Of a stretch of 37,965 bases of DNA, positions 1-24,269 are shown piece after piece (positions within the stretch are counted from its first letter, which is position 1; the number at the start of each line of letters is the position of its first letter). The notes under the pieces are model-generated. The model ran no database searches, was not told the DNA's origin, and saw nothing but the letters and a program-made list of their open reading frames with translations. Both the position numbers and the translations under genes were made by a program. This DNA comes from Calditrichota bacterium (GTDB lineage Bacteria > Calditrichota > Calditrichia > RBG-13-44-9 > J075), in assembly GCA_020434205.1 (NCBI GenBank), contig JAGRBF010000062.1:4028-41992 (forward strand). Reading direction: 5' to 3'.

Positions 1-1122
1 GAAAACGCCCGTCTCCAATCCGGCGAAGAGGAGGAGCTGAATGCCGAACTCAAGGTGCTCAGTAATGTGGAAAAGTTATTTAGCCTCTGTGCAACCCTGA
101 ACAACCTTTTCTCCGGGGAGGCGTTTAGTCTTCTGCAGGGTGCTCAGGAAGCGGACGTCAAATTGAAGGAGCTGGCCCGCTATGCTACGGAATTGGGCAG
201 CATAAGCGAGGAGGTCTCGAGCGCCAGAATCGTTCTGGAAGAAGCCGCGCGAAGCGTGGAAAGTTTTGAAAGTTCCCTCGCCTATGATCCGGAGCGCCTG
301 GAAGCGGTGCAAAGCCGTCTGGAGGTGATCAACCTCCTTAAGAAGAAATACGGCGGCTCGGTCGAGGCGGTTTTGGCCCATCAGCAAAAACTTGCCGAAT
401 CTTTGGATCTCCGCAACAATTTTGAAGGGGAAATTTCACGACTGGGTAAACAGGTTGCGGAAAGCGCCGCCAATTATGCCCGCGCAGCGGAAACCCTGTC
501 TTCCGGACGGCATCGGGCCGCAGAGGCTATGCAGGCCTCGGTAGCTGAGAAGCTGATGGATCTGGGGATGCCCCGGATTCGCTTTCGGGCCGCGGTTGAG
601 CTGACCCCCGATCCCCGGGGAATTTACCTGAAAGACGGTGAACGGTATTCGGGAGACGGCCACGGAATTGACGCGGTAGAGTTTTTTATCTCCCCCAACC
701 CCGGGGAAGACTTTAAGCCGCTCAGCAAAATCGCCTCCGGTGGGGAAATTTCCCGCATTATGCTGGCCCTGAAATCGATCCTGGCCGATGTCGACCAGGT
801 CCCCACCCTCATTTTCGATGAAATCGACAGCGGGGTTTCCGGGCGAATTGCACAGGCGGTAGGTCGTAGTATTCTTGAACTTAGCACCAGCCACCAGATT
901 TTTTGCATCACCCACCTGCCCCAGATTGCCGCACAGGGGCAGACCCACTTTTCGGTGGAAAAATATGTTGAAGAGGATCGGACCTTTACCCGGATTTTGC
1001 CATTGGATGATCCGGGGCGCATCGAGGCCATCGCCAGCCTGATTGCCGGGGAAAACCTCAATGAAACGGTGCTGGCCAGTGCCCGTCAGCTCCTGGACGA
1101 AAACAGGGGAGCCGGTATTTAG
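1..1122 (+). CDS. recN: DNA repair protein RecN, C-terminal part (5' end outside window)
   Basis: The reading frame is open from the first base, so this is the last 373 residues of a protein usually about 550 long. RecN is an SMC-like ATPase that acts in double-strand break repair. Seen: an N-terminal stretch with the RecN-type 'LSNVEKL' segment, a long coiled-coil-like helical region, then the ABC-type C-terminal head with the signature motif 'ASGGEISRIMLALKS', Walker B 'TLIFDEIDSGVSG' and the H-loop 'ITHLPQIAA'. These motifs in this order are diagnostic of RecN rather than SMC or RecF. A GTG at position 55 lies inside the protein and is not the start. The stop is 35 bases before the next gene on the same strand. 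Intact at its 3' end. Confidence 0.96.
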   Translation, partial: ENARLQSGEEEELNAELKVLSNVEKLFSLCATLNNLFSGEAFSLLQGAQEADVKLKELARYATELGSISEEVSSARIVLEEAARSVESFESSLAYDPERLEAVQSRLEVINLLKKKYGGSVEAVLAHQQKLAESLDLRNNFEGEISRLGKQVAESAANYARAAETLSSGRHRAAEAMQASVAEKLMDLGMPRIRFRAAVELTPDPRGIYLKDGERYSGDGHGIDAVEFFISPNPGEDFKPLSKIASGGEISRIMLALKSILADVDQVPTLIFDEIDSGVSGRIAQAVGRSILELSTSHQIFCITHLPQIAAQGQTHFSVEKYVEEDRTFTRILPLDDPGRIEAIASLIAGENLNETVLASARQLLDENRGAGI

Positions 1123-1157: not shown

Positions 1158-2927
1158 ATGATGACCTCATTTTGGTTTAAATCAGCATGCCTTTTTTTCC
1201 TGATGGTCGGTTTGGCAAACGCCGCGCCGGAGGAAGAGGCCGTGTCGACCTTCGACTGGTCCGCCCCCCAGGAAGTGCGCATCGCCCTGTGGCGGTATAC
1301 GGTCGGCAGCCAGGCGCCGGGCGATCCGACCCCGCCCACGGACTGGGTGGTGCTGGACAGCCTCCTGAATTACCCCGAAAACGGCAAAACAAATTATTGG
1401 CTGCGGCACCGCCTGCTAATTACCGGCCAACCGGATTCCTTGACCTTTCTGGCCCTTGCCTTGGCCAACGTTCCCACCGCCTACCAGGTTTACTGGGACG
1501 GGACCCTGGTCTTTACCAATGGGGAAGTGGCCGAAGGTGAAACACCCGAATCTCCCGGAAAATACAAGACCAGGGTAATCCTGTCGCAACAGAGAACGAC
1601 CCCGGGCCAACACATTCTGGAGCTGAGAGTCTCGGATTTGGGCGCCGCCGGGGAACGTTTCGTGGGGCGGGTCCGTTTTGGGCGGGCCGACCAACTGTGG
1701 ACCCGCGCTGATGCGCTCCGGGAACAGCAGATTTTCCATGTCGGCGCCTTTGGGCTGGCGGCGATTTTCGCTTTTGCCCTTTTCCTGGGCGGCGGCCGCA
1801 ACAGCGCCTATCTGTATTTTGCCATCTACAGCCTGGCGGTGGTGGTAAACGGGCTGGTCAATATTCTGACCCTCTTCGGCGATTTCCCGGTTAATCGTTT
1901 TGAATACATCCGGTGGTTTTTCCATTTTATTGCGCCCTGCGCCATGTTCCTGCTCGGGGTTTTTATCATTAAAAATTTCCGCATTCCCCACCAGCGTTTC
2001 CACGCCGTCGTTCTGGCGGTGGCGTTAATCATCCTGGAGGGGCTGGGGGGAGAGGAAAAGCTGCTCTGGGTGGTGGTTTATTTTGCCCTGCTGCTGGGGT
2101 ATGCCATTCGGAAACGCCGGGCCGGGAGTATCCTGGTATCCCTGGGAATTCTGGTCTCCTCTTATCTGGATCTGCGCTTTTTTCTCAATGAAGGAACCTA
2201 CGGCTATTCTTTCGGCATGATGTTTATGGTATTCTGCGTGGCAATGGGCATCAGCCGGCAAATCCGTCAGCAAAACCGCGAAACGGAAAGGGCCCTTCTT
2301 CATTCCGCACGGCTGGAAAACGAACTGCTGAAAAGAAATATCCAGCCCCATTTCTTAATGAATACCCTGCTGTCCGTGGTGTCCTGGATTCGCCAGGATC
2401 CCGATAAAGCGGTAGCGCTGATCCAGGCCCTTGCCAAGGAATTCCGCCTGATCAACCAGATTTCCGGGGAACGGGAAATTCCCCTGCAGCGGGAAATCGA
2501 ATTGTGTCGCATACACCTCGATTTGATGGGATATCGACACAATGCTTCCTATACGCTGGAACTCCCCCAAAGCCCACCGGAAGCCAGCATTCCCCCGATG
2601 GTATTCCATACCCTGGTGGAAAATGGCCTTACCCATGCCTATCGCTCCACCGAGGATGGCACCTTCCGCCTGGATTGGGAAATCTCCGAGAGCGAAATTT
2701 GCTATCACCTCAGTAATGACGGCTCCCGCCTCAAACAACTCAAGGTGGATTCTCCGGAAACCATTGAGGAGGGCATGGGGATTCGCTACGTTAAAGCCCG
2801 CCTGGAGGAGAGTTACCCCGGCCGCTGGGACCTGAAATACGGCATGCTCGGGGAGCGTTGGCGCGTTTCCATTGTTCTGCCGAAAACGACCGTATTATCC
2901 GAGAACAGCTTTCCGCAGGCCGGTTAG
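1158..2927 (+). CDS. LytS-type sensor histidine kinase with periplasmic sensor and 7TM region
   Basis: 589 residues. An N-terminal signal segment (residues 1-22, ending at ANA) is followed by a periplasmic beta-rich domain (about 40-190), resembling sensor domains that precede 7TM receptor modules. Next comes a block of about seven hydrophobic helices (about 195-375), then a LytS/His_kinase-type transmitter with phosphoacceptor His398 in 'NIQPHFLMNTL'. The HATPase domain has the N-box 'HTLVENGLTHAY' and the G-box 'EGMGIRYVKARL'. Such kinases normally phosphorylate LytTR regulators. No regulator is adjacent; the nearest LytTR regulator starts at 10954. The start ATG is preceded by AGGA at 1151-1154. 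The next gene begins 12 bases after the stop, suggesting co-transcription with the helicase. The ligand cannot be predicted. Confidence 0.9.
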   Translation: MMTSFWFKSACLFFLMVGLANAAPEEEAVSTFDWSAPQEVRIALWRYTVGSQAPGDPTPPTDWVVLDSLLNYPENGKTNYWLRHRLLITGQPDSLTFLALALANVPTAYQVYWDGTLVFTNGEVAEGETPESPGKYKTRVILSQQRTTPGQHILELRVSDLGAAGERFVGRVRFGRADQLWTRADALREQQIFHVGAFGLAAIFAFALFLGGGRNSAYLYFAIYSLAVVVNGLVNILTLFGDFPVNRFEYIRWFFHFIAPCAMFLLGVFIIKNFRIPHQRFHAVVLAVALIILEGLGGEEKLLWVVVYFALLLGYAIRKRRAGSILVSLGILVSSYLDLRFFLNEGTYGYSFGMMFMVFCVAMGISRQIRQQNRETERALLHSARLENELLKRNIQPHFLMNTLLSVVSWIRQDPDKAVALIQALAKEFRLINQISGEREIPLQREIELCRIHLDLMGYRHNASYTLELPQSPPEASIPPMVFHTLVENGLTHAYRSTEDGTFRLDWEISESEICYHLSNDGSRLKQLKVDSPETIEEGMGIRYVKARLEESYPGRWDLKYGMLGERWRVSIVLPKTTVLSENSFPQAG

Positions 2928-2939
2928 GGCACGTCGCGC

Positions 2940-5900
2940 ATGGATGGAACACCTTACATTTACCTTAACTTTGTGCGCTTTCGCGACCAGTTGGAAACCC
3001 ATCTGATCGACCTTCGCAAGCGTCATCGCGGGGAACTCTTTCCCACCCTGCATCCGGAAACGCCCATTCTGGATTATTTTGTGGAGACCTTCTTCGACGA
3101 AGGGCATCCCGCCACCTATCTTTTCAGCAACAGCTCCCTGAAGGATCGTCAGGTAGACCTGACCATCCGCTCCCCGCGAACACGATTGATCGGGGAAGAG
3201 ATGCCGGAAGGCATTTCTCTCTGCGTTCGCGGAACCCTGGGACCCCCGCACGATCCCAGCCCGGAGGTGGTGGTGGATCGCATCAGTGAGGTTGCCGAAG
3301 CGCCTCAGCGAACCTTTGAGAAAGATGTTGAGGTAATACCGGTTGTTTCTCCCAAAAACCGGGTCAAAAATGTACTGACCCCCGCCTTTGTCCGCAATCT
3401 TCCGGAAATTTCCCGGATTACCCGGGAAAAGCTCTCCCATTGGATCGATTATCTGGACTGGCAGGCAGCCATTCTGGAAAGCCGCCAAAAGGGCTTTTTG
3501 TATCGCCAACTCACCGTCGAGAAGGACCAGGTGGTGCTCAGCGCGGTTTTTCAAAATCAGGATGCCCTTAACGAAGCGCTGGAGATTGTGAAACGGGAAA
3601 GTATGGAAATTTACCCGCCCCGCGCTTCACTACAGGCACTGACCTTTCAACCGGATCGCAATGGGCGCTTTAACGGCCGTTGGCTGGGGAGTTTTATCCG
3701 ATCGGAGCCCATCGAAAAACCGAACCCGGAACTGCTGAACAATTTGCCCTGGCCGGATGCCAAAGCGGCCCGCCTGTTTTTTGCCTTTTCGGAAAAGGAT
3801 CAGCGCAGCTACCAGGCGGTACACCCGGATTACCGGGATGAAACCCGGGACTACATCCGCAAACAATTCCCCGCTGCCGGCTTTTTTAGTGTTTCGCTGT
3901 TCGGGGAAATGTCTCTTTTGCAGCGCCAGAAGGCTGCCCTCAACAAACTGGCGGAGACGTCCGGATATGCCCCGTTTCTGTCCAGTTGGCTTTTTGATAT
4001 CGAACAGGCCAATCTGCCCCAGATTTCCCCGGAAATTGACCACTGGTTGTTGGATGGCATCAACGAAGGGCAACAGCGCGCTATTCACAAAATTCTGGGG
4101 GCTCCCGATGTTGCATTGCTTCAGGGACCTCCCGGGACCGGTAAAACCACCGTCATCGGGGAGGCCATCTACCAGTTGGTGCGCCAGGGGAAAAAAGTTC
4201 TCCTGGCCTCCCAGGCCAATCTGGCGGTGGACAATGCCCTGGAGAAGCTGGCCTCGGTGCCGGAGATCCGGGCAATTCGCCTCGGGCGAAGCCATAAGCT
4301 CTCCGAGGAGGGGCAGGCCTTTGCCGAAGACCAGGCCCTCCGCAAGTTTTACCATGCCATCGGTGAAGCACTGGAAGATCGCTATTTGAGCCGATGGGGT
4401 GCCGCTGATGAAGCCGCCGAGGAACTGCAGGTTTATCTGCAAAAACTCGAGGATCTGGTGGCGCGCGGCAAGGCCGTTAAGGTAGAGAAGGACAATGCCA
4501 TTGCCGGGGAAGGGAGTGCTGCTGAGCTATTCACCGGAGAGGATATCACCCGCGGGGCCAACCGCTCTGAGATGGTGCACCTCCAGCAACAGCGCCTCTT
4601 TGCGCTGGCCGATTTTCTGGAAAAAGGGGGCGAGCACCGCCTGGTAATTCACGAAAAGCTCCTGGATTTAATTTGGCGCTCCCTGGTGGTCCCGCTGTCT
4701 CGCCTCACTCGCTACAAGATTGATATCAATCCGTTTTGGCTGGAAAATGACGAGCGCTATTCCAATGATGAAAAAACCGTCTTCTTCGAAGAGATTTACC
4801 GGAAGTGGTTAAACATCCGGGAAATGCTGCCGGATTTACAGTTGGAATTCCGGGAACGTCTGGAGGTCCCGGACAACAAACCCCGTAATAAGGCGCTTTA
4901 CCAGAAATTGTTTACCCGGGTGGAGAAAGGGCAGCCCTTCTACCGTTACCTGGCCCATCCCGCTTTGGACGATCACAAGGTCGGGCTCTTTCTAAAAGAA
5001 AGCGCCCGGGCTCTGGAAAGCACCGAAAACCATCTCTCCGCAGCCGTGGCAACTCTGGTCAAAAATTTACATGAGATGGCGACCCGGCTTGGGGAGGCGG
5101 GTGAGCTTACGGATTTCCACGGCGAAAACCCGACCGGCGTTTCGGACCAACCCGAAGAGCTGGCGCCAACGGAAGAGGGTATTGGAGAAGAAGAGCAGGA
5201 GAGCGCGGTTTTAATCGCCAAAATGCGCGAGGAGGGTATCATCTCAGGAGAGATGGCCGAGGCCGGCAGCGCGGATTTGATTACCCACCTTCGCCAGCGC
5301 ATTTCCGACCTGCTGGATGCCAATCTGTCGGAGTCTATTGAAGATTCGGGATTCCGCGATAAATGGGAACCCCTGCTGAGGGAATGGTCCGCGTTGATGC
5401 GGGAGCCCGAACAGCTGGCCAATGATAACCAGCATTATATGGACATTTACCTTCGCAACTGTAACGTAATCGGGATTACCTGCAACGAAAATCCCCGCCT
5501 GCTGGAGGGCAAAGGTCAGCACTTTTTTGACGTGGCGATTATCGATGAGGTCAGCAAGGCCACCCCGCCGGAATTAATTATGCCAATGATTATGGCCCGC
5601 AAATCGATTCTGGTGGGAGACCATCGCCAGTTGCCCCCTTTGTTTAAGGAAAGGGAGGGCAGTTGGAGCGAGGCCGTTGCCGCCCTGGCCTTGCACGAAG
5701 AGGAACACCCCGCCGCCCACCTGCTAACCGAGGAAAACTTTTTCAAATTTCGCGATATGGTTACCGCTGCCCTTTTCAAAGAGTATTTTGAAAAGGCCCC
5801 GCAGGCCATTAAAACCACCCTGCTGACCCAATATCGAATGCATCCCCAGATCATGGACGTGGTCAATTTTTTTTACGACCATAATCTGAACTGCGGGCTG

Positions 5901-6572
5901 AAGGACCCTGAGAAAGACCGCAATCACGGCCTTACCCTCACCAACCCCGAACAAATTTCCTGGCTCACGCCCGATTTACATGCCATGTGGATCGACACCA
6001 GCAAGGATGGCGACGGCAAGCCGCACTACGAACGCCAGAGCGGCACCTCCAAAATCAACAATCTGGAAATTGCCGCCATCGACCGGATGCTGGAGGAAAT
6101 GAACCTGGCTTACCGGGAACGCGGTTTTGGCCAGACCCAACGCAAGGAGGTGGGGGTCATTTCTTTTTACGGGCGCCAGGTGGCCGAACTCCGGCGCCGG
6201 ATCCGGCGGGATGCCTACGAATGCTTGGATATCGACGTCAACACTGTGGATCAATTCCAGGGCAAGGAAAAACCGGTCATTCTGGTGAGCCTGGTGCGCA
6301 ACACCCCTGCCGGCGCCGCTGCCGCCAACGCCTTTGTCAAACAATTCGAGCGCATCAATGTCGCCTTCTCCCGGGCTCAGGAGCTGTTGGTGATTTTCGG
6401 GGCCCGCCATACCTTCGAGAAATGCGAGGTGGAGTTGCCCCTGATGGATCAGAAAGGCACCCTAAAAAAGGCGGTTTACGGCGAAATTATGGAAATGCTC
6501 AACCGCAGGGCGGCCATGTGGCCGGCCGGAGAGGTACTGCTCAAGGAGACGGGTAGAGGAGGACGGCGATGA
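2940..6572 (+). CDS. Large Upf1/Dna2-like superfamily 1 helicase
   Basis: 1210 residues. Helicase motifs in order: Q-like 'NEGQQRAI' near 375, motif I/Walker A GPPGTGKT at 396-403, motif Ia 'ASQANLAVDNAL', motif II 'IIDEVSKATPPEL' with Asp869-Glu870, motif III 'VGDHRQLPP', motif IV 'LTQYRMHPQIM', motif V 'NTVDQFQGKEKPVI' and motif VI 'RINVAFSRAQELL'. This is the SF1B Upf1-like pattern, so an ATP-driven nucleic-acid translocase is expected. The first 370 residues match no domain I recognise. About 430 residues separate motif Ia from motif II, with helical and acidic stretches (glutamate-rich near 740-760). No nuclease motif was seen. It lies 12 bases after the kinase and overlaps the next gene by 4 bases (ATGA), implying translational coupling. 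Whether it acts on RNA or DNA is unknown. Confidence 0.9.
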   Translation: MDGTPYIYLNFVRFRDQLETHLIDLRKRHRGELFPTLHPETPILDYFVETFFDEGHPATYLFSNSSLKDRQVDLTIRSPRTRLIGEEMPEGISLCVRGTLGPPHDPSPEVVVDRISEVAEAPQRTFEKDVEVIPVVSPKNRVKNVLTPAFVRNLPEISRITREKLSHWIDYLDWQAAILESRQKGFLYRQLTVEKDQVVLSAVFQNQDALNEALEIVKRESMEIYPPRASLQALTFQPDRNGRFNGRWLGSFIRSEPIEKPNPELLNNLPWPDAKAARLFFAFSEKDQRSYQAVHPDYRDETRDYIRKQFPAAGFFSVSLFGEMSLLQRQKAALNKLAETSGYAPFLSSWLFDIEQANLPQISPEIDHWLLDGINEGQQRAIHKILGAPDVALLQGPPGTGKTTVIGEAIYQLVRQGKKVLLASQANLAVDNALEKLASVPEIRAIRLGRSHKLSEEGQAFAEDQALRKFYHAIGEALEDRYLSRWGAADEAAEELQVYLQKLEDLVARGKAVKVEKDNAIAGEGSAAELFTGEDITRGANRSEMVHLQQQRLFALADFLEKGGEHRLVIHEKLLDLIWRSLVVPLSRLTRYKIDINPFWLENDERYSNDEKTVFFEEIYRKWLNIREMLPDLQLEFRERLEVPDNKPRNKALYQKLFTRVEKGQPFYRYLAHPALDDHKVGLFLKESARALESTENHLSAAVATLVKNLHEMATRLGEAGELTDFHGENPTGVSDQPEELAPTEEGIGEEEQESAVLIAKMREEGIISGEMAEAGSADLITHLRQRISDLLDANLSESIEDSGFRDKWEPLLREWSALMREPEQLANDNQHYMDIYLRNCNVIGITCNENPRLLEGKGQHFFDVAIIDEVSKATPPELIMPMIMARKSILVGDHRQLPPLFKEREGSWSEAVAALALHEEEHPAAHLLTEENFFKFRDMVTAALFKEYFEKAPQAIKTTLLTQYRMHPQIMDVVNFFYDHNLNCGLKDPEKDRNHGLTLTNPEQISWLTPDLHAMWIDTSKDGDGKPHYERQSGTSKINNLEIAAIDRMLEEMNLAYRERGFGQTQRKEVGVISFYGRQVAELRRRIRRDAYECLDIDVNTVDQFQGKEKPVILVSLVRNTPAGAAAANAFVKQFERINVAFSRAQELLVIFGARHTFEKCEVELPLMDQKGTLKKAVYGEIMEMLNRRAAMWPAGEVLLKETGRGGRR

Positions 6573-7945
6573 GGATTGCCCGCATCAATCTCCTGTTTCC
6601 GGTGTGGAAAATGTCCGGCACGGTCGGCTTCAGCCAGCATCGCAGGGCCACCCTTTTTGAGAAAATCCTCCTGGACATCAGCCATAATTTTGGGAATGAT
6701 CCCCATTATGCCGGCGAAACCCTTTACGATCTGCTGACCCGGATTGCCTGCATTTCCGAATGCGATGCCTTTGTTTTGCCCGCCCTGACCCAGATGATCG
6801 ACAACGGCATCATCACCTGCCAGACCCCGTTCCGGTCCCTGAGAGGCGTCCGTCTCGAGGATCTTCACCTCACCGAAGCAGGGGTCGCCATGGCAAAAGC
6901 CGGGTCGGTGGCCGGCGAATTGAGCGAAAAGGCGGTCGAGCTCTACCTGGACCCCCTACGCCGGGAAATCCTCTCCGAGGAGGACCAGGACAACCTGACC
7001 GGCGAACCCTTCGGCCGGACCTTTCCCGAACCGGTGCAGGAGGCGGATCTGGACAATCTGGCGGTGCGGCACTTCCGGGAGGCGCCGCCAGACTGGCTTA
7101 AGGAGGGGGATCAGATAACCCGGGTAAACCTCCACAAACAGGCTACCCTGTGGCGGAGCACCTTCGGAGAAATTCGCCTGGCGGAGAATGCCGAACTGGT
7201 TCTGGATTTTGGTCATGCGGATATCAACGACCATTTTGCCGAAATGGCGCCGGAGGACCTGGCCGAACAGTATTTTGCCCCGGCATTTCGGGCAGACGGG
7301 CTGGAAAAACTGGTCCCGGCAGGGGTGGTGGATCTGGCGCGTTTAAACCCTGCCCCGGAGCAGATTTTCGCGCCGGCCCGAATCGAAGAGTTTATGGCCC
7401 TGGAGAATCCGGGTATCCATTTTTTGCGCTACCGGGAAGGTCTGGAAGATCAGCTGACCCTGCGGGATAACACCCTGATGGTTGTGTTCGAATATTTGCC
7501 CGAAGATAATCCCGAAGGGGTGGCGTGGGATGAAAAACGAAATGCCGCCATTGTTTACCTGGACGAACGTTTTCCCATAAACGGCTGCCTGTACCTCAAC
7601 CACAACCGGGACAACCTCTTCCTGGCCAAAGTCGCCTACCGTTTGCGGGGCAAAACCTTTACCGCGCCGATGGGCTTCGTTTTGTCCGGAAATCACCGCA
7701 GGTTGGATCCCACCCCCTTTTACGAGCTGGTATCCGAAATTCTGGATACCGCGGACAGCAGCGATTATCAGCTCATCAAGCTCTTCTGGAAATCTCCTCA
7801 GGCGGTCTTTCAGGATGTCTACGGTCAGGTAAAACGGCGGGTGCGGGAACGCACCGCCCTCATGGAGGAGCTGGGGGAGTTCCGGGAGCGCATCCGGCGT
7901 ATTCGCCCCGGCAGCACTCTGCGCACCATTGATCTGGATCCGTGA
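6569..7945 (+). CDS. Unrecognised protein translationally coupled to the helicase
   Basis: 458 residues; I do not recognise the family. The start ATG overlaps the helicase stop (ATGA), and there is an AGGA-type sequence about 10 bases upstream, so the two are very probably made together. Residues about 45-115 read like a winged-helix: helices, 'LPALTQMIDNGII', a short beta wing, then 'LEDLHLTEAGVAMAKAG', as in DNA-binding wings that end in LTEAG. The middle (about 120-400) is mixed alpha/beta with no catalytic signature that I can name. The last 40 residues are basic and helical ('VKRRVRERTALMEELGEF'). No signal peptide or membrane segment, so cytoplasmic. Inferred role: specificity or adaptor subunit for the helicase. 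It could equally be a regulator. Confidence 0.75.
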   Translation: MRIARINLLFPVWKMSGTVGFSQHRRATLFEKILLDISHNFGNDPHYAGETLYDLLTRIACISECDAFVLPALTQMIDNGIITCQTPFRSLRGVRLEDLHLTEAGVAMAKAGSVAGELSEKAVELYLDPLRREILSEEDQDNLTGEPFGRTFPEPVQEADLDNLAVRHFREAPPDWLKEGDQITRVNLHKQATLWRSTFGEIRLAENAELVLDFGHADINDHFAEMAPEDLAEQYFAPAFRADGLEKLVPAGVVDLARLNPAPEQIFAPARIEEFMALENPGIHFLRYREGLEDQLTLRDNTLMVVFEYLPEDNPEGVAWDEKRNAAIVYLDERFPINGCLYLNHNRDNLFLAKVAYRLRGKTFTAPMGFVLSGNHRRLDPTPFYELVSEILDTADSSDYQLIKLFWKSPQAVFQDVYGQVKRRVRERTALMEELGEFRERIRRIRPGSTLRTIDLDP

Positions 7946-10687: not shown

Positions 10688-10812
10688 GAGATGATATTCT
10701 GTTCCGCCCCCGCGGATTGCCTTTCGGATTCCACCGAAAATCACTCAAAATTCTGATGATAAACCCAACATTGCAATTATCGGACTCCGAAGGAAAAACT
10801 CTACACGCAAAA

Positions 10813-10827
10813 TGCGCCAAAGGCGCA
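10813..10827. repeat. Small perfect hairpin, 6-bp stem with 3-base loop
   Basis: TGCGCC-AAA-GGCGCA in the spacer between the divergent chemoreceptor and LytTR genes. No T-run follows it on either strand, so it is not a standard terminator. Similar GC stems with 3-base loops occur at 11676-11690 and 11781-11793. Confidence 0.6.
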
Positions 10828-10940
10828 AATATAGCCTTGGCCAGCGTTTTTTGTTCGACTTCCGGAAATTTATCCTCTACTTTAAAGGGTAGGTATCGGG
10901 GGCTGCTTTGTTTGCCACCATTCCGGAAACCAAACGGGCG

Positions 10941-10944
10941 AGGA
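10941..10944 (+). promoter_or_regulatory. Ribosome binding site that sets the LytTR regulator start
   Basis: AGGA lies 9 bases before the ATG at 10954. The frame is open further upstream to an ATG at 10717, but that extension covers the spacer with the hairpin and has no receiver-domain character. A GTG at 10951 and an ATG at 10960 are also in frame; 10954 has the best spacing. Confidence 0.6.
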
Positions 10945-10953
10945 TACGTAGTG

Positions 10954-11664
10954 ATGAGTATGCGGATATTGATTGTCGAAGACGAAAATCCCATTGCTCA
11001 TTATCTGGGGGATCTGTGCGGCAAGGTGCTCAGCGAACGGGCCCCGCAGATTGCCTTTGCCGAAAGCCTGGATGCCGCCGAGGATTACCTGCGCAATCAC
11101 GAAATCGACTTATGTTTGCTGGACCTCAACCTCAACGGGGAGTCCGGATTCGACCTGCTTAAAACCACCCTCTCCAACGCCTTCCACACCATTGTGATTA
11201 CCGCCAACGAAGAAGAGGCGGTGCAGGCCTTCGAATACGGGGTGCTCGATTTTATTCCCAAACCCTTCGATGAGGAACGCCTGGAAAAGGCTTTTCAGCG
11301 TTACTTCGAGCGCAGCGAAAACCGGGAGGTGGTGACCCGCTTCCTGACCGTGCGCAAGGACCAGCAGAACATCGTTCTGCCCGTTTCCCAGATCCGCTAC
11401 TTCAAGGCGGCCGGGATCTATGTGGAAGCCCATTTGCGCAACGGACGCATTGAGATCCTCGACAAAACCATGGACCGCCTTCAGCAGATTCTACCCGCCC
11501 GTTTTGTGCGCATCCACCGTTCCTTTCTGGTGGACATCGCCGAGATTGCCGCTTACCGCCACGTCGGCGGAGGCTCTTACCAGGTGCGTTTGCACGGCGG
11601 TGACCAGCTTCCCCTGTCCCGCCAAAAATACCGCGATTTGCACGAAATACTCAACTACAATTGA
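10954..11664 (+). CDS. LytTR-family response regulator
   Basis: 236 residues. N-terminal receiver domain (about 3-120): acidic pocket Glu9-Asp10, phosphoacceptor Asp57 in 'LCLLDLNLNGESGF', Thr83 and Lys103 in 'FIPKPFDEERL'. C-terminal LytTR DNA-binding domain (about 135-235) with 'ILPARFVRIHRSFLVDI', the typical RxHRSxLVN-like core, and 'LPLSRQKYRDLHEIL'. It would bind direct repeats upstream of target promoters after phosphorylation. Its natural partner type, a LytS-like kinase, is at 1158-2927, though the helicase pair and the chemoreceptor lie between them. It is divergent from the chemoreceptor gene across 281 bases and stands alone as a transcription unit. The start choice rests on AGGA at 10941. 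Confidence 0.93.
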   Translation: MSMRILIVEDENPIAHYLGDLCGKVLSERAPQIAFAESLDAAEDYLRNHEIDLCLLDLNLNGESGFDLLKTTLSNAFHTIVITANEEEAVQAFEYGVLDFIPKPFDEERLEKAFQRYFERSENREVVTRFLTVRKDQQNIVLPVSQIRYFKAAGIYVEAHLRNGRIEILDKTMDRLQQILPARFVRIHRSFLVDIAEIAAYRHVGGGSYQVRLHGGDQLPLSRQKYRDLHEILNYN

Positions 11665-21218: not shown

Positions 21219-24200
21219 ATGATCCTTTCCAAATCAAATATTGCGGGTTTTCTATTCCTGCTGGGCTGCCAGATTTTTTTCCTTTACGGGGGAGAACTCC
21301 GGGGACGGATGCTTTCCCACCATTTCGATTATAAAACCTATCGGGGGCATCAGGAAAACTGGAGCACCACTCAGGATTCTCTCGGCCGGATTTACGTGGC
21401 CAACAATTCCGGGATCCTGATTTTTGACGGCGCCCGCTGGCAACTGGTCCGCAATCCCGCCAATGCCGCGGTTTTGTCTGTGGATTACGCCCCGGACGGG
21501 CGGGTTTACGCCGGGCTGGAGTCGGATTTCGGCTACCTGGAGTCCGATAGCCTGGGTTTTCCCCAATACGTTTCCCTTAAGGATCGCCTGCCGGATTCCC
21601 TGAGGACTTTCCAGCAGGTCTGGAAGGTGCATGCCCTGCCAAACGCGGTTTATTTTTTTACCGTGAAGCGGGTTTTCCGCTGGGACGGTAGCGAACTCTC
21701 CCTCTTCCACAACTATTCTATCAGTGCCCTTTCCAATAAAGTGGGGAATCGGATTTTCTTCGGGGACTATGGGCAGGGTATTATGGTGGTGGGGGAGGAC
21801 AGCCTGTACCGCCTGCCCGGATGCGAGGATTTTCTAAGGGAAGAGAACTTTGTGGTTACCGGAGGCGGCAAGCCGGAAGAACTCCTCCTGATAACCCGGG
21901 GGCGCGGCATTTTCCGGTATCATCAGGGACAATTTTCGACCTTTCCAACCCCTGTGGGGGAGCGACTGCGAAAAGCCGCGGTGTATTGCGGGACAACCAT
22001 GCCGGATGGACGCCTGCTTTTGGGGACCATTCGCGATGGTCTCTTGGTGCTGGATCAAAACGGGGCGTTGCTCTATCACGTCAACAAGGATGAAGGCCTG
22101 AAGGAAAACACGGTTGTCCATGCCTTTGTCGATGCTCAAAACGGCATTTGGCTCGCGGAGGTCAATGGCATTACCCGTCTGGAGCCGGATGCCGGAATGG
22201 GTACTTTTGGCGAAGCGGAAGGTTTGAAGGGCAACGTGCTTTCCCTTCTGGGCAGCTCCGGGGGGATTTATGCCGGAACCCACGAAGGTCTTTTCAGGCT
22301 GAAGGAAGGGCCACCCGGAAAACGCGGTGAGTTTGATACGGTTTCCGGTATCCGCTCCTTTACCCACGCCTTAAGCGAGCAGGATGGCCAGATCCTGGCC
22401 GGCACGGACCGCGGGGTTTTTATTGTTGAGGGAAACCAGGCCCGCTTTATCGATGTCGCCTGGCCGCGGGTGTACGGATTTCACCGGGGGAAAGCGCACC
22501 CGGAGCAGATCTATGTGGCCTTGTTGAATGGCCTCAGCATCATGCGCAAAAATGCCTCCGGGGCGTGGGATCACCATCGCCGGGTTCAGGGGATTGAAAG
22601 GGAAATCCGCGCCATCGGCGGGGACCGGGACGATCGGCTTTGGCTGGCCCCGGCCGGGGGAGGCCTGCTGCGGGTTTCCGTGCGGTATCCCGACAACCCC
22701 TCAGAATTGCTAACCGCCGCCATCGATACCTTTGGCCAGGCCCACAACCTGCCCGGGGGAGAGGTTTCCATCGCGGAAATAAATGGGGAAAACCTCTTTA
22801 TTACCGGCAATGCCATTTTGATTTTTGATGAAGATCGGCAACAATTTGCGCCGCATCCCCTAATGGAAGGAGCCTACCGGGGGAAGGGCCATCAGTTAAC
22901 CGCCATCCAAAACAACGGCGATCAGCTCTGGATCGCCGGCCAGGAGCGGGACGAGCCGTTTCTGGACCTGATTAACCTCGCCGATCCCGCAAAAAAAGTG
23001 CGTTTCCAAAGGTTGCGGGATCTGGGTCTTATCTCCGCTGTGTGGGCGGAAGCGAATTTTCTTTTGTTGGGGGCCGCGGAAGGCATTGTTCTGCTGTATC
23101 CCGATCGGGTGTTCAAACCGGCGGACGCCTTTGCCGTGGTTCTGCACCAGGTCCGCATCAACGATGGCGAAAAGGTGCGGGGCATCGGCTGGGGGCCGCC
23201 TTCGGCCGGGCTGAGCCTCCATTTCCACCAAAACCGCCTCCGATTCGAATTCAGCGCCACCAGCTACGACGATGCGCAGGCCAATCTGTTTCAGACCCGC
23301 CTGGAGGGATTGGATGAGGACTGGTCTGCCTGGTCTCCGGAAATTCGCAAGGATTTCACCAGTCTCCCCGAGGGAAACTACAACTTCCGGGTTCGCTCCC
23401 GCAATGCCCATGGCACGGTTAGCAAAGCAACGGGCTTCGCTTTTAACGTATTGCCGCCCTGGTATCGGACCGCCTGGGCTTATGGTTTTTACCTGCTGCT
23501 CGGCGGGGGAATGCTGGGTTTATTGGTGCAACTGAGGGTAAACTCGGTGCGCCGGAAAGCGGAAGAAACGCTGGCCAGGGAGCGCGACCGGGCTGAACTG
23601 CAGGAGGCAACCCTGCGGGCCGAGGCCGCGGAAGCGCAGAAAGAGGTGGAAAAAGAGATAATGCGCAGCAGAATTGCCAGCGACCTCCACGACGAAATCG
23701 GCAGCAATCTGAGCAGCATTTCCCTGTTGAGCCAATTGTTGATGAAACGGGAGGACCTCACCGCCAAAGAGCGGGAGCGCTTAAACCACATTGCCTCGGT
23801 TGCCCGGGAAACCGCCCACGCCATGCGCGACATCGTCTGGTTTGTCAATCCCGCCAACGATTCCTTAAGTCGCCTGTGGGCCCGTATGCGGGAAACCGCC
23901 AATCTGATGCTGGAGCCTTATGAGTTCGTTTTCGAGGCCCCGGAAACCGCGGTGAATATCCCGCAGGATCTCAATTTTAAACGAAATCTATACCTCATTT
24001 TCAAAGAAGCCCTCCAAAATATTGTCCGCCATGCCGACCCCAAAAAGGTGGAAATCCGCATTGGGGAAACTTCCGGCGGGTTTTTTATGGAAATTGTTGA
24101 TGACGGTCGGGGATTTAACCCTCAAACGGCGCCTGCCGGTAACGGTCTGGGTAACTTTGCCCGCCGGGCCCGGGACATGGGCGCCGAATTGGAAGTTGCT

Positions 24201-24269
24201 TCACAGCCGGGCAAAGGCACCCGGGTATTCCTGCATCAAAAATACCGCGATTCCGGTATGGATTCCTGA
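21219..24269 (+). CDS. Hybrid-sensor-style histidine kinase with beta-propeller (Reg_prop), Y_Y_Y and HisKA_3
   Basis: 1016 residues. Short N-terminal hydrophobic segment (about 8-24). Then repeated propeller blades with Reg_prop-like phrases such as 'GRIYVANNSGILIFDG' and 'GIWLAEVNGITRL' (about 45-640), then a Y_Y_Y domain (about 660-755: 'LEGLDEDWSAWS', 'LPEGNYNFRVRSRNAHG'). A single transmembrane helix (about 762-782) follows, a coiled coil, and a HisKA_3 dimerisation domain with His824 in 'SDLHDEIGSNLSS'. The HATPase has 'EALQNIVRHADP' and 'DDGRGFNP...GNGLGNFARRA'. This is the architecture of Bacteroidota sensor kinases for extracellular polymers or envelope cues, without the extra regulator domain of full hybrids. 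Partner: the NarL-type regulator 38 bases downstream. The ligand is unknown. Confidence 0.93.
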   Translation: MILSKSNIAGFLFLLGCQIFFLYGGELRGRMLSHHFDYKTYRGHQENWSTTQDSLGRIYVANNSGILIFDGARWQLVRNPANAAVLSVDYAPDGRVYAGLESDFGYLESDSLGFPQYVSLKDRLPDSLRTFQQVWKVHALPNAVYFFTVKRVFRWDGSELSLFHNYSISALSNKVGNRIFFGDYGQGIMVVGEDSLYRLPGCEDFLREENFVVTGGGKPEELLLITRGRGIFRYHQGQFSTFPTPVGERLRKAAVYCGTTMPDGRLLLGTIRDGLLVLDQNGALLYHVNKDEGLKENTVVHAFVDAQNGIWLAEVNGITRLEPDAGMGTFGEAEGLKGNVLSLLGSSGGIYAGTHEGLFRLKEGPPGKRGEFDTVSGIRSFTHALSEQDGQILAGTDRGVFIVEGNQARFIDVAWPRVYGFHRGKAHPEQIYVALLNGLSIMRKNASGAWDHHRRVQGIEREIRAIGGDRDDRLWLAPAGGGLLRVSVRYPDNPSELLTAAIDTFGQAHNLPGGEVSIAEINGENLFITGNAILIFDEDRQQFAPHPLMEGAYRGKGHQLTAIQNNGDQLWIAGQERDEPFLDLINLADPAKKVRFQRLRDLGLISAVWAEANFLLLGAAEGIVLLYPDRVFKPADAFAVVLHQVRINDGEKVRGIGWGPPSAGLSLHFHQNRLRFEFSATSYDDAQANLFQTRLEGLDEDWSAWSPEIRKDFTSLPEGNYNFRVRSRNAHGTVSKATGFAFNVLPPWYRTAWAYGFYLLLGGGMLGLLVQLRVNSVRRKAEETLARERDRAELQEATLRAEAAEAQKEVEKEIMRSRIASDLHDEIGSNLSSISLLSQLLMKREDLTAKERERLNHIASVARETAHAMRDIVWFVNPANDSLSRLWARMRETANLMLEPYEFVFEAPETAVNIPQDLNFKRNLYLIFKEALQNIVRHADPKKVEIRIGETSGGFFMEIVDDGRGFNPQTAPAGNGLGNFARRARDMGAELEVASQPGKGTRVFLHQKYRDSGMDS

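Follow-up and report, generated by a model that had tools for sequence, protein, structure and literature searches.

A helicase-partner gene pair of Calditrichia as a candidate Mokosh-like module with neither recognised kinase nor recognised nuclease

Three genes that follow one another closely on one strand of a 37,965-nucleotide stretch of DNA (the window; part of a draft Calditrichia genome in 710 contigs) encode a histidine kinase, a large SF1 helicase and a partner protein, and they raise the question of which of the three belong together and in what process they act. A sequence-only reading had proposed them as a candidate undescribed module in which the helicase and partner form a functional unit, possibly under control of the kinase. 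The arrangement itself is as that reading described, with a 12-base gap between the first two ORFs and a 4-base ATGA overlap between the last two (Table 1). The closest described systems are those of Mokosh: in type I a helicase goes with a Ser/Thr kinase (STK) domain and with a PLD nuclease made as its own protein, whereas in type II helicase and PLD are fused (PMC11672841).

Table 1. Coordinates of features in the window and at related loci (window positions unless a locus or contig is named).
Feature	Coordinates	Strand	Length	Basis
LytS-type histidine kinase	1158-2927	+	589 aa	
SF1/Upf1-like helicase, MkoA clade	2940-6572	+	1210 aa	
Partner protein	6569-7945	+	458 aa	
Partner residues 1-240, adaptor module with winged-helix-like region	6569..7288	+		hhalign, AlphaFold
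Partner residues 241-458, no recognised effector	7289..7942	+		Pfam/NCBIfam/PDB, conservation by segment, pLDDT
Coupling site: AGGAGG, then ATGA overlap (helicase stop/partner start)	6556..6572	+		sequence
LytTR response regulator, outside the module	10717..11664	+		Pfam LytTR and Response_reg
RecN, frame in window	55-1122			
RecN, frame on contig C332	C332 3444-4067			
Hybrid sensor	21219-24269		1016 residues	
Helicase-PIN operon	L027 7992-17945			
Helicase-PIN operon	L028 5867-15778			
Helicase-PIN operon	L029 7875-17594			
Helicase-PIN operon	L030 7728-17435			
Helicase-PIN operon	L031 6420-16822			
Nostoc sp. C052 plasmid pC052_C, helicase, DarT fusion and ADP-ribosylglycohydrolase gene	L033 5101-11849			
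MkoA-type helicase locus	L082 4584-12212			
MkoA-type helicase locus	L083 4345-13292			

Recurrence of the pair in Calditrichota

The partner occurs in 3 of the 40 genomes searched in the phylum, all three within one Calditrichia family of seven (3/7); the pair was not found in the other four genomes of the family or in 33 further genomes of the phylum. Every one of the three partners has the helicase directly upstream with an overlap of 1-4 bases, and the fact that the two stay adjacent and conserved in G005 and G002 as well (helicase pieces 44-50% identical, partner 27-33%) shows that both ORFs are real genes. An AGGAGG Shine-Dalgarno sequence inside the helicase 3′ end lies just 5′ of the partner start, and helicase/partner overlaps of 1-4 bases are found not only in G005 and G002 but also in Moellerella, Polaromonas and Photobacterium. 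The three copies occupy unrelated sites in three genera: the window pair neighbours RecN, LytS and MCP genes, the G005 pair UvrC and LysR, and the G002 pair, which abuts a contig end, M16-type peptidase genes (neighbour names were read from sequence). The gene 3′ of the pair (MCP in the window, LysR in G005) is in both cases on the opposite strand, and RecN is followed by other genes in relatives. RecN is split into two frames, one in the window and one on contig C332, abutting at about contig position 4070; it is a single frame of 570-588 residues in relatives, and the split is a frameshift that is either real or an assembly error. Elsewhere the window encodes a hybrid sensor that combines Reg_prop repeats with Y_Y_Y and histidine kinase domains.

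Recurrence in three genera, together with homologous pairs on plasmids (see below), shows that the pair is neither housekeeping synteny of one lineage nor a chance neighbourhood, and the refutation test set by the sequence-only reading does not refute the proposal. With recurrence at unrelated sites, coupled starts and the plasmid counterparts, the proposal that helicase and partner form a functional unit is upheld. None of the three Calditrichia copies (0/3) lies in a defence island, their neighbours being housekeeping genes. Two scans of genome contigs returned only the same two Calditrichia loci, and a scan of viral contigs gave no match; when 385 genomes were searched for the adaptor module, significant scores came from the three known copies and no others, so the family is either rare or too divergent for the profile. 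Among the same genomes RecN is 55-58% identical, against which the partner diverges far faster; this divergence and the patchy presence of the pair fit a defence gene, without proving one.

Helicase clade, partner modules and known systems

The description of the helicase as an SF1 enzyme with a complete motif set is borne out: motifs I-VI were found, with GPPGTGKT at residue 396, DEVSK from 869, GDHRQLP at 893, QYRM at 964, TVDQFQGKE at 1102 and VAFSRA at 1141. The protein matches Pfam AAA_11/AAA_12 and has a clade-specific N-terminal region (residues about 1-370; modelled at pLDDT 65, with only weak Sen1/SETX-like structural rows) and a long insert (about 510-830) between motifs Ia and II; Pfam searches found no Ser/Thr kinase domain (no Pkinase match) and no nuclease domain. 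The PADLOC MkoA profile matches the helicase at 6.9e-111, covering profile positions 423-1098 only, and identification by this score alone was rejected because the profile also gives generic bacterial helicases of ~700 aa E-values of 1e-90 to 1e-100. As a side observation, automated Mokosh calls made from this profile alone (PDLC03920) may be wrong.

As the MkoA score is not specific, the helicase was placed by a tree of 22 helicases. The three Calditrichia helicases form one clade (100/100) and group with helicases of plasmid PIN operons (99/99), although the tree does not settle if the PIN helicases make up one sister clade; the next group out contains cyanobacterial helicases whose partners have the MkoB N-terminus (99/98), followed less firmly by two helicases adjoining Ser/Thr kinase genes, and the short generic IGHMBP2 helicases fall apart from the MkoA clade. 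Full-length relatives, 34-37% identical, are encoded on plasmids of Moellerella, Polaromonas, Acinetobacter and Photobacterium, and Leisingera has a longer version; the best of these relatives align from near residue 6, and the helicase-partner arrangement as a whole has homologues on plasmids of Gammaproteobacteria, Betaproteobacteria, Alphaproteobacteria and cyanobacteria. At all five plasmid loci with a PIN partner the order is helicase, PIN-domain protein, hypothetical protein (~375 aa), ClpB-like ATPase (resembling ClpB D2) and radical-SAM-type protein (NrdG-like). Neither the PADLOC nor the NCBIfam copy used has a name for this five-gene operon, which is itself a candidate defence system.

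Relatives of the pair sit on plasmids, adjoin restriction genes or lie within a BREX operon, and the Acinetobacter copy shares its stretch with BREX and DarT-family genes. In Aulosira the helicase is followed by MkoB (PADLOC 1.7e-34) with a PLD-like domain, and in Nostoc sp. C052 by a fusion of the MkoB N-terminus to DarT within a BREX operon; the partners in G198 and G260 are both matched by PADLOC MkoB. On plasmid pC052_C of this Nostoc, the helicase, the fusion and an ADP-ribosylglycohydrolase gene lie between pglX and pglZ of BREX-1. At two other loci (L082 and L083, from two genomes) an MkoA-type helicase is accompanied by vWA, PP2C, NERD and Ser/Thr kinase genes or domains and by a partner that has an MkoB-like N-terminus and no recognised effector.

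The partner had been called unplaceable, and single-sequence searches against Pfam, NCBIfam, PDB and plasmids indeed gave no match; its N-terminal part could nevertheless be placed by profile comparison. The three Calditrichia partners match the five PIN partners at 99.5% probability (E 1.1e-22), and residues 1-240 match the start of the PIN partners at 99.7% (hhalign, E 2.8e-26), the homology ending before the PIN domain; an unrelated family from the PIN operon, used as a control, scored 0.6%. The PADLOC MkoB profile matches the window partner weakly (E 0.047) and does not match its two orthologues, and that match was given no weight before profiles had been compared alongside controls. Residues of about 1-135 match MkoB N-termini at 90% (hhalign, E 1.7e-6) with the Calditrichia proteins alone and at 96.4% (E 1.4e-9) when the PIN partners are added to the profile; no reversed profile and none of 40 shuffled ones exceeded 0.4%. 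An AlphaFold model of the partner (mean pLDDT 54.8) is confident at the N-terminus only, at about 75-89 over residues 10-140, where it predicts with fair confidence a long hairpin and then helices in winged-helix-like order; Foldseek found no significant fold for the model, only weak winged-helix rows. This N-terminal adaptor module carries PLD, PIN or DarT effectors in relatives. No PLD, PIN, DarT or other recognised effector was found in the window partner (Pfam, NCBIfam and PDB), its orthologues likewise gave no PLD match, and residues 241-458 match the PIN partners at a probability of 6.9% (hhalign).

Compared with known systems, the pair resembles Mokosh type I (MkoA + MkoB) in that its COG1112/Upf1-like helicase belongs to the MkoA clade and has, directly downstream, a coupled partner with an N-terminus homologous to that of MkoB, a shared trait and not a published criterion. 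It differs in that neither the helicase nor an adjoining gene supplies a Ser/Thr kinase domain, the upstream kinase being of the His_kinase type, and in having no PLD nuclease, the partner C-terminus being unrelated to PLD. With type II (MkoC) it shares the branch of the helicase superfamily (MkoC profile E 1.9e-33), but MkoC is a single helicase-PLD protein, whereas the Calditrichia pair is two proteins and has no PLD. The plasmid helicase-PIN operons have the nearest helicases in the tree, the same gene order, the same overlap in most cases and homology over the 240 N-terminal residues of the partner, but the Calditrichia pair does not have their PIN nuclease, the region preceding it or the three downstream genes. 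The Nostoc sp. C052 pair likewise joins a helicase to an adaptor-effector partner of the same group; its effector, however, is the ADP-ribosyltransferase DarT, and it is located within BREX. Bacterial helicases of the IGHMBP2 family (TIGR00376) have the SF1B core and Pfam AAA_11/AAA_12 in common with the window helicase but are about 650-750 aa and outside the MkoA clade, and the window helicase scores 215.2 bits against TIGR00376, below the cut-off of 348.9. Eukaryotic Upf1, Sen1 and SMUBP-2 share the helicase core, and the weak match of the modelled N-terminal region, but have no defence partner and carry other accessory domains.

Because the STK domain and PLD nuclease were both tested for and are absent, the pair is classed as a Mokosh-like variant and not as Mokosh. 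The proposal of an undescribed module is only partly sustained: the helicase and the partner N-terminus belong to the described MkoA/MkoB group of Mokosh, but the kinase-less, nuclease-less form fits neither type.

Function of the pair and competing readings

On balance, the pair is best read as a pared-down Mokosh-like module directed at nucleic acids, with neither kinase nor nuclease, whose role is probably anti-phage defence. This reading is favoured by the recurrence of the pair and its patchy presence, the helicase tree, the partner N-terminal homology with its negative controls, the relatives on plasmids and beside restriction and BREX genes, and the position of the pair inside a split LytS-LytTR operon (see below). 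Against it count the housekeeping surroundings of all three Calditrichia copies, the native base composition and missing target-site duplication, the low specificity of the MkoA score and the weak MkoB match of the partner. We infer a physical complex of the two proteins, with substrate, defence role and mechanism as follows: the 5′-3′ Upf1-like helicase would sense or load on foreign RNA or DNA, and the co-translated partner would bind the helicase or nucleic acid through its winged-helix adaptor, which in relatives tethers the PLD, PIN or DarT effector. In Calditrichia the effector would have been lost, or the conserved C-terminal part of the partner would have taken its place, and the module would act by ATP-driven displacement or stripping of foreign nucleic acid, or by an effector activity as yet unrecognised.

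The C-terminal half may accordingly belong to an effector-less adaptor or be a new effector. That residues 241-458, with a core at 281-351, form a new effector domain, making the module a complete Mokosh-like system with an unrecognised enzyme, is the strongest of the competing readings, though a distinctly less likely one. Residues 281-351 are the most conserved stretch among the three orthologues (28/71 positions invariant vs. 57/387 elsewhere; patterns IHFLR, NTL-V-FE and EG--WD---N-A--YLDER) and lie in the half where relatives carry PLD, PIN or DarT, and the invariant polar residues H284, R287, N301, E308, E316, D321, N325, D332, E333 and R334 could form an active site. Against this, the comparison comprises three sequences only, there is no structure or family match, the predicted fold is poor (pLDDT mostly below 50 over residues 241-458), and residues 354-413 show a weak, collinear likeness to the middle of the PIN partners, which is non-catalytic (score 27 vs. 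a shuffled maximum of 17.5), in which case the whole protein would be an adaptor.

The Upf1-like fold, the housekeeping neighbours and a native base composition would suit a unit for RNA quality control or repair that a few Calditrichia possess and that plays no part in defence; such a housekeeping role is unlikely, as the pair is missing from four of the seven family genomes, went undetected in the 33 others of the phylum and occupies three unrelated loci, its close relatives on plasmids adjoin restriction and BREX genes, and the partner is 29-32% identical where RecN of the same genomes is 55-58%. Decay of a larger PIN/PLD operon into a non-functional remnant is very improbable: the nuclease and three accessory genes of the PIN operon are indeed missing, the third gene being undetected in the phylum in a search that had no positive control, but three divergent genera have kept both frames open and every helicase motif intact, and conservation of residues 281-351 is strong.

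The remaining question is the place of the kinase. Its assignment as LytS-type stands (His_kinase PF06580, E 4.5e-14; QPHF motif present); in place of the seven transmembrane segments ascribed to it, about five to six hydrophobic segments were seen. In G005 and G002 the kinase homologues are on contigs other than those of the pair and have a LytTR response-regulator gene 3-12 bases away. The LytTR regulator of the window is probably the former neighbour of the LytS kinase, being 65% identical to the regulator encoded after the best kinase homologue of G005; the LytS-LytTR operon, contiguous in G005 and G002, is parted in the window by about 8 kb that hold the helicase, the partner and the MCP gene. 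Since the homologues adjoin a LytTR gene and the window operon is split by these three genes, the kinase is a bystander: as gene order indicates, it is outside the module and one half of a LytS-LytTR two-component operon. The suggestion of kinase-controlled expression fails on the same observations, and a three-gene kinase-helicase-partner module, for which the spacing of only 12 bases and the STK genes beside other MkoA-type helicases might speak, can be set aside as already contradicted, because this kinase is a LytS histidine kinase and no STK and its homologues are unlinked to the pair and coupled with LytTR regulators.

On the simplest reading, the helicase-partner-MCP segment entered a two-component operon, and the split is what acquisition as a cassette would produce. 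A search for target-site duplications and for foreign base composition showed neither, the composition of the segment matching its surroundings.

If the Mokosh-like reading of the pair is right, a recognisable nuclease and kinase would be dispensable in Mokosh, the helicase-adaptor pair would be the Mokosh core, and how Mokosh senses and acts would become a two-protein problem; unrecognised effectors would also be predicted on other partners with the same N-terminal module. More speculatively, and somewhat less likely even than a new effector in this one system, Mokosh may exemplify a wider, modular defence platform, with the MkoA helicase always joined by a winged-helix adaptor that bears exchangeable effectors (PLD, PIN, DarT), residues 241-458 of the Calditrichia partner being a previously unknown effector domain. 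The pair may show that the helicase core can work with different or still unrecognised weapons, and the profile of the N-terminal module can serve to search for systems of this kind, among them the five-gene plasmid operon without a name in the libraries used.
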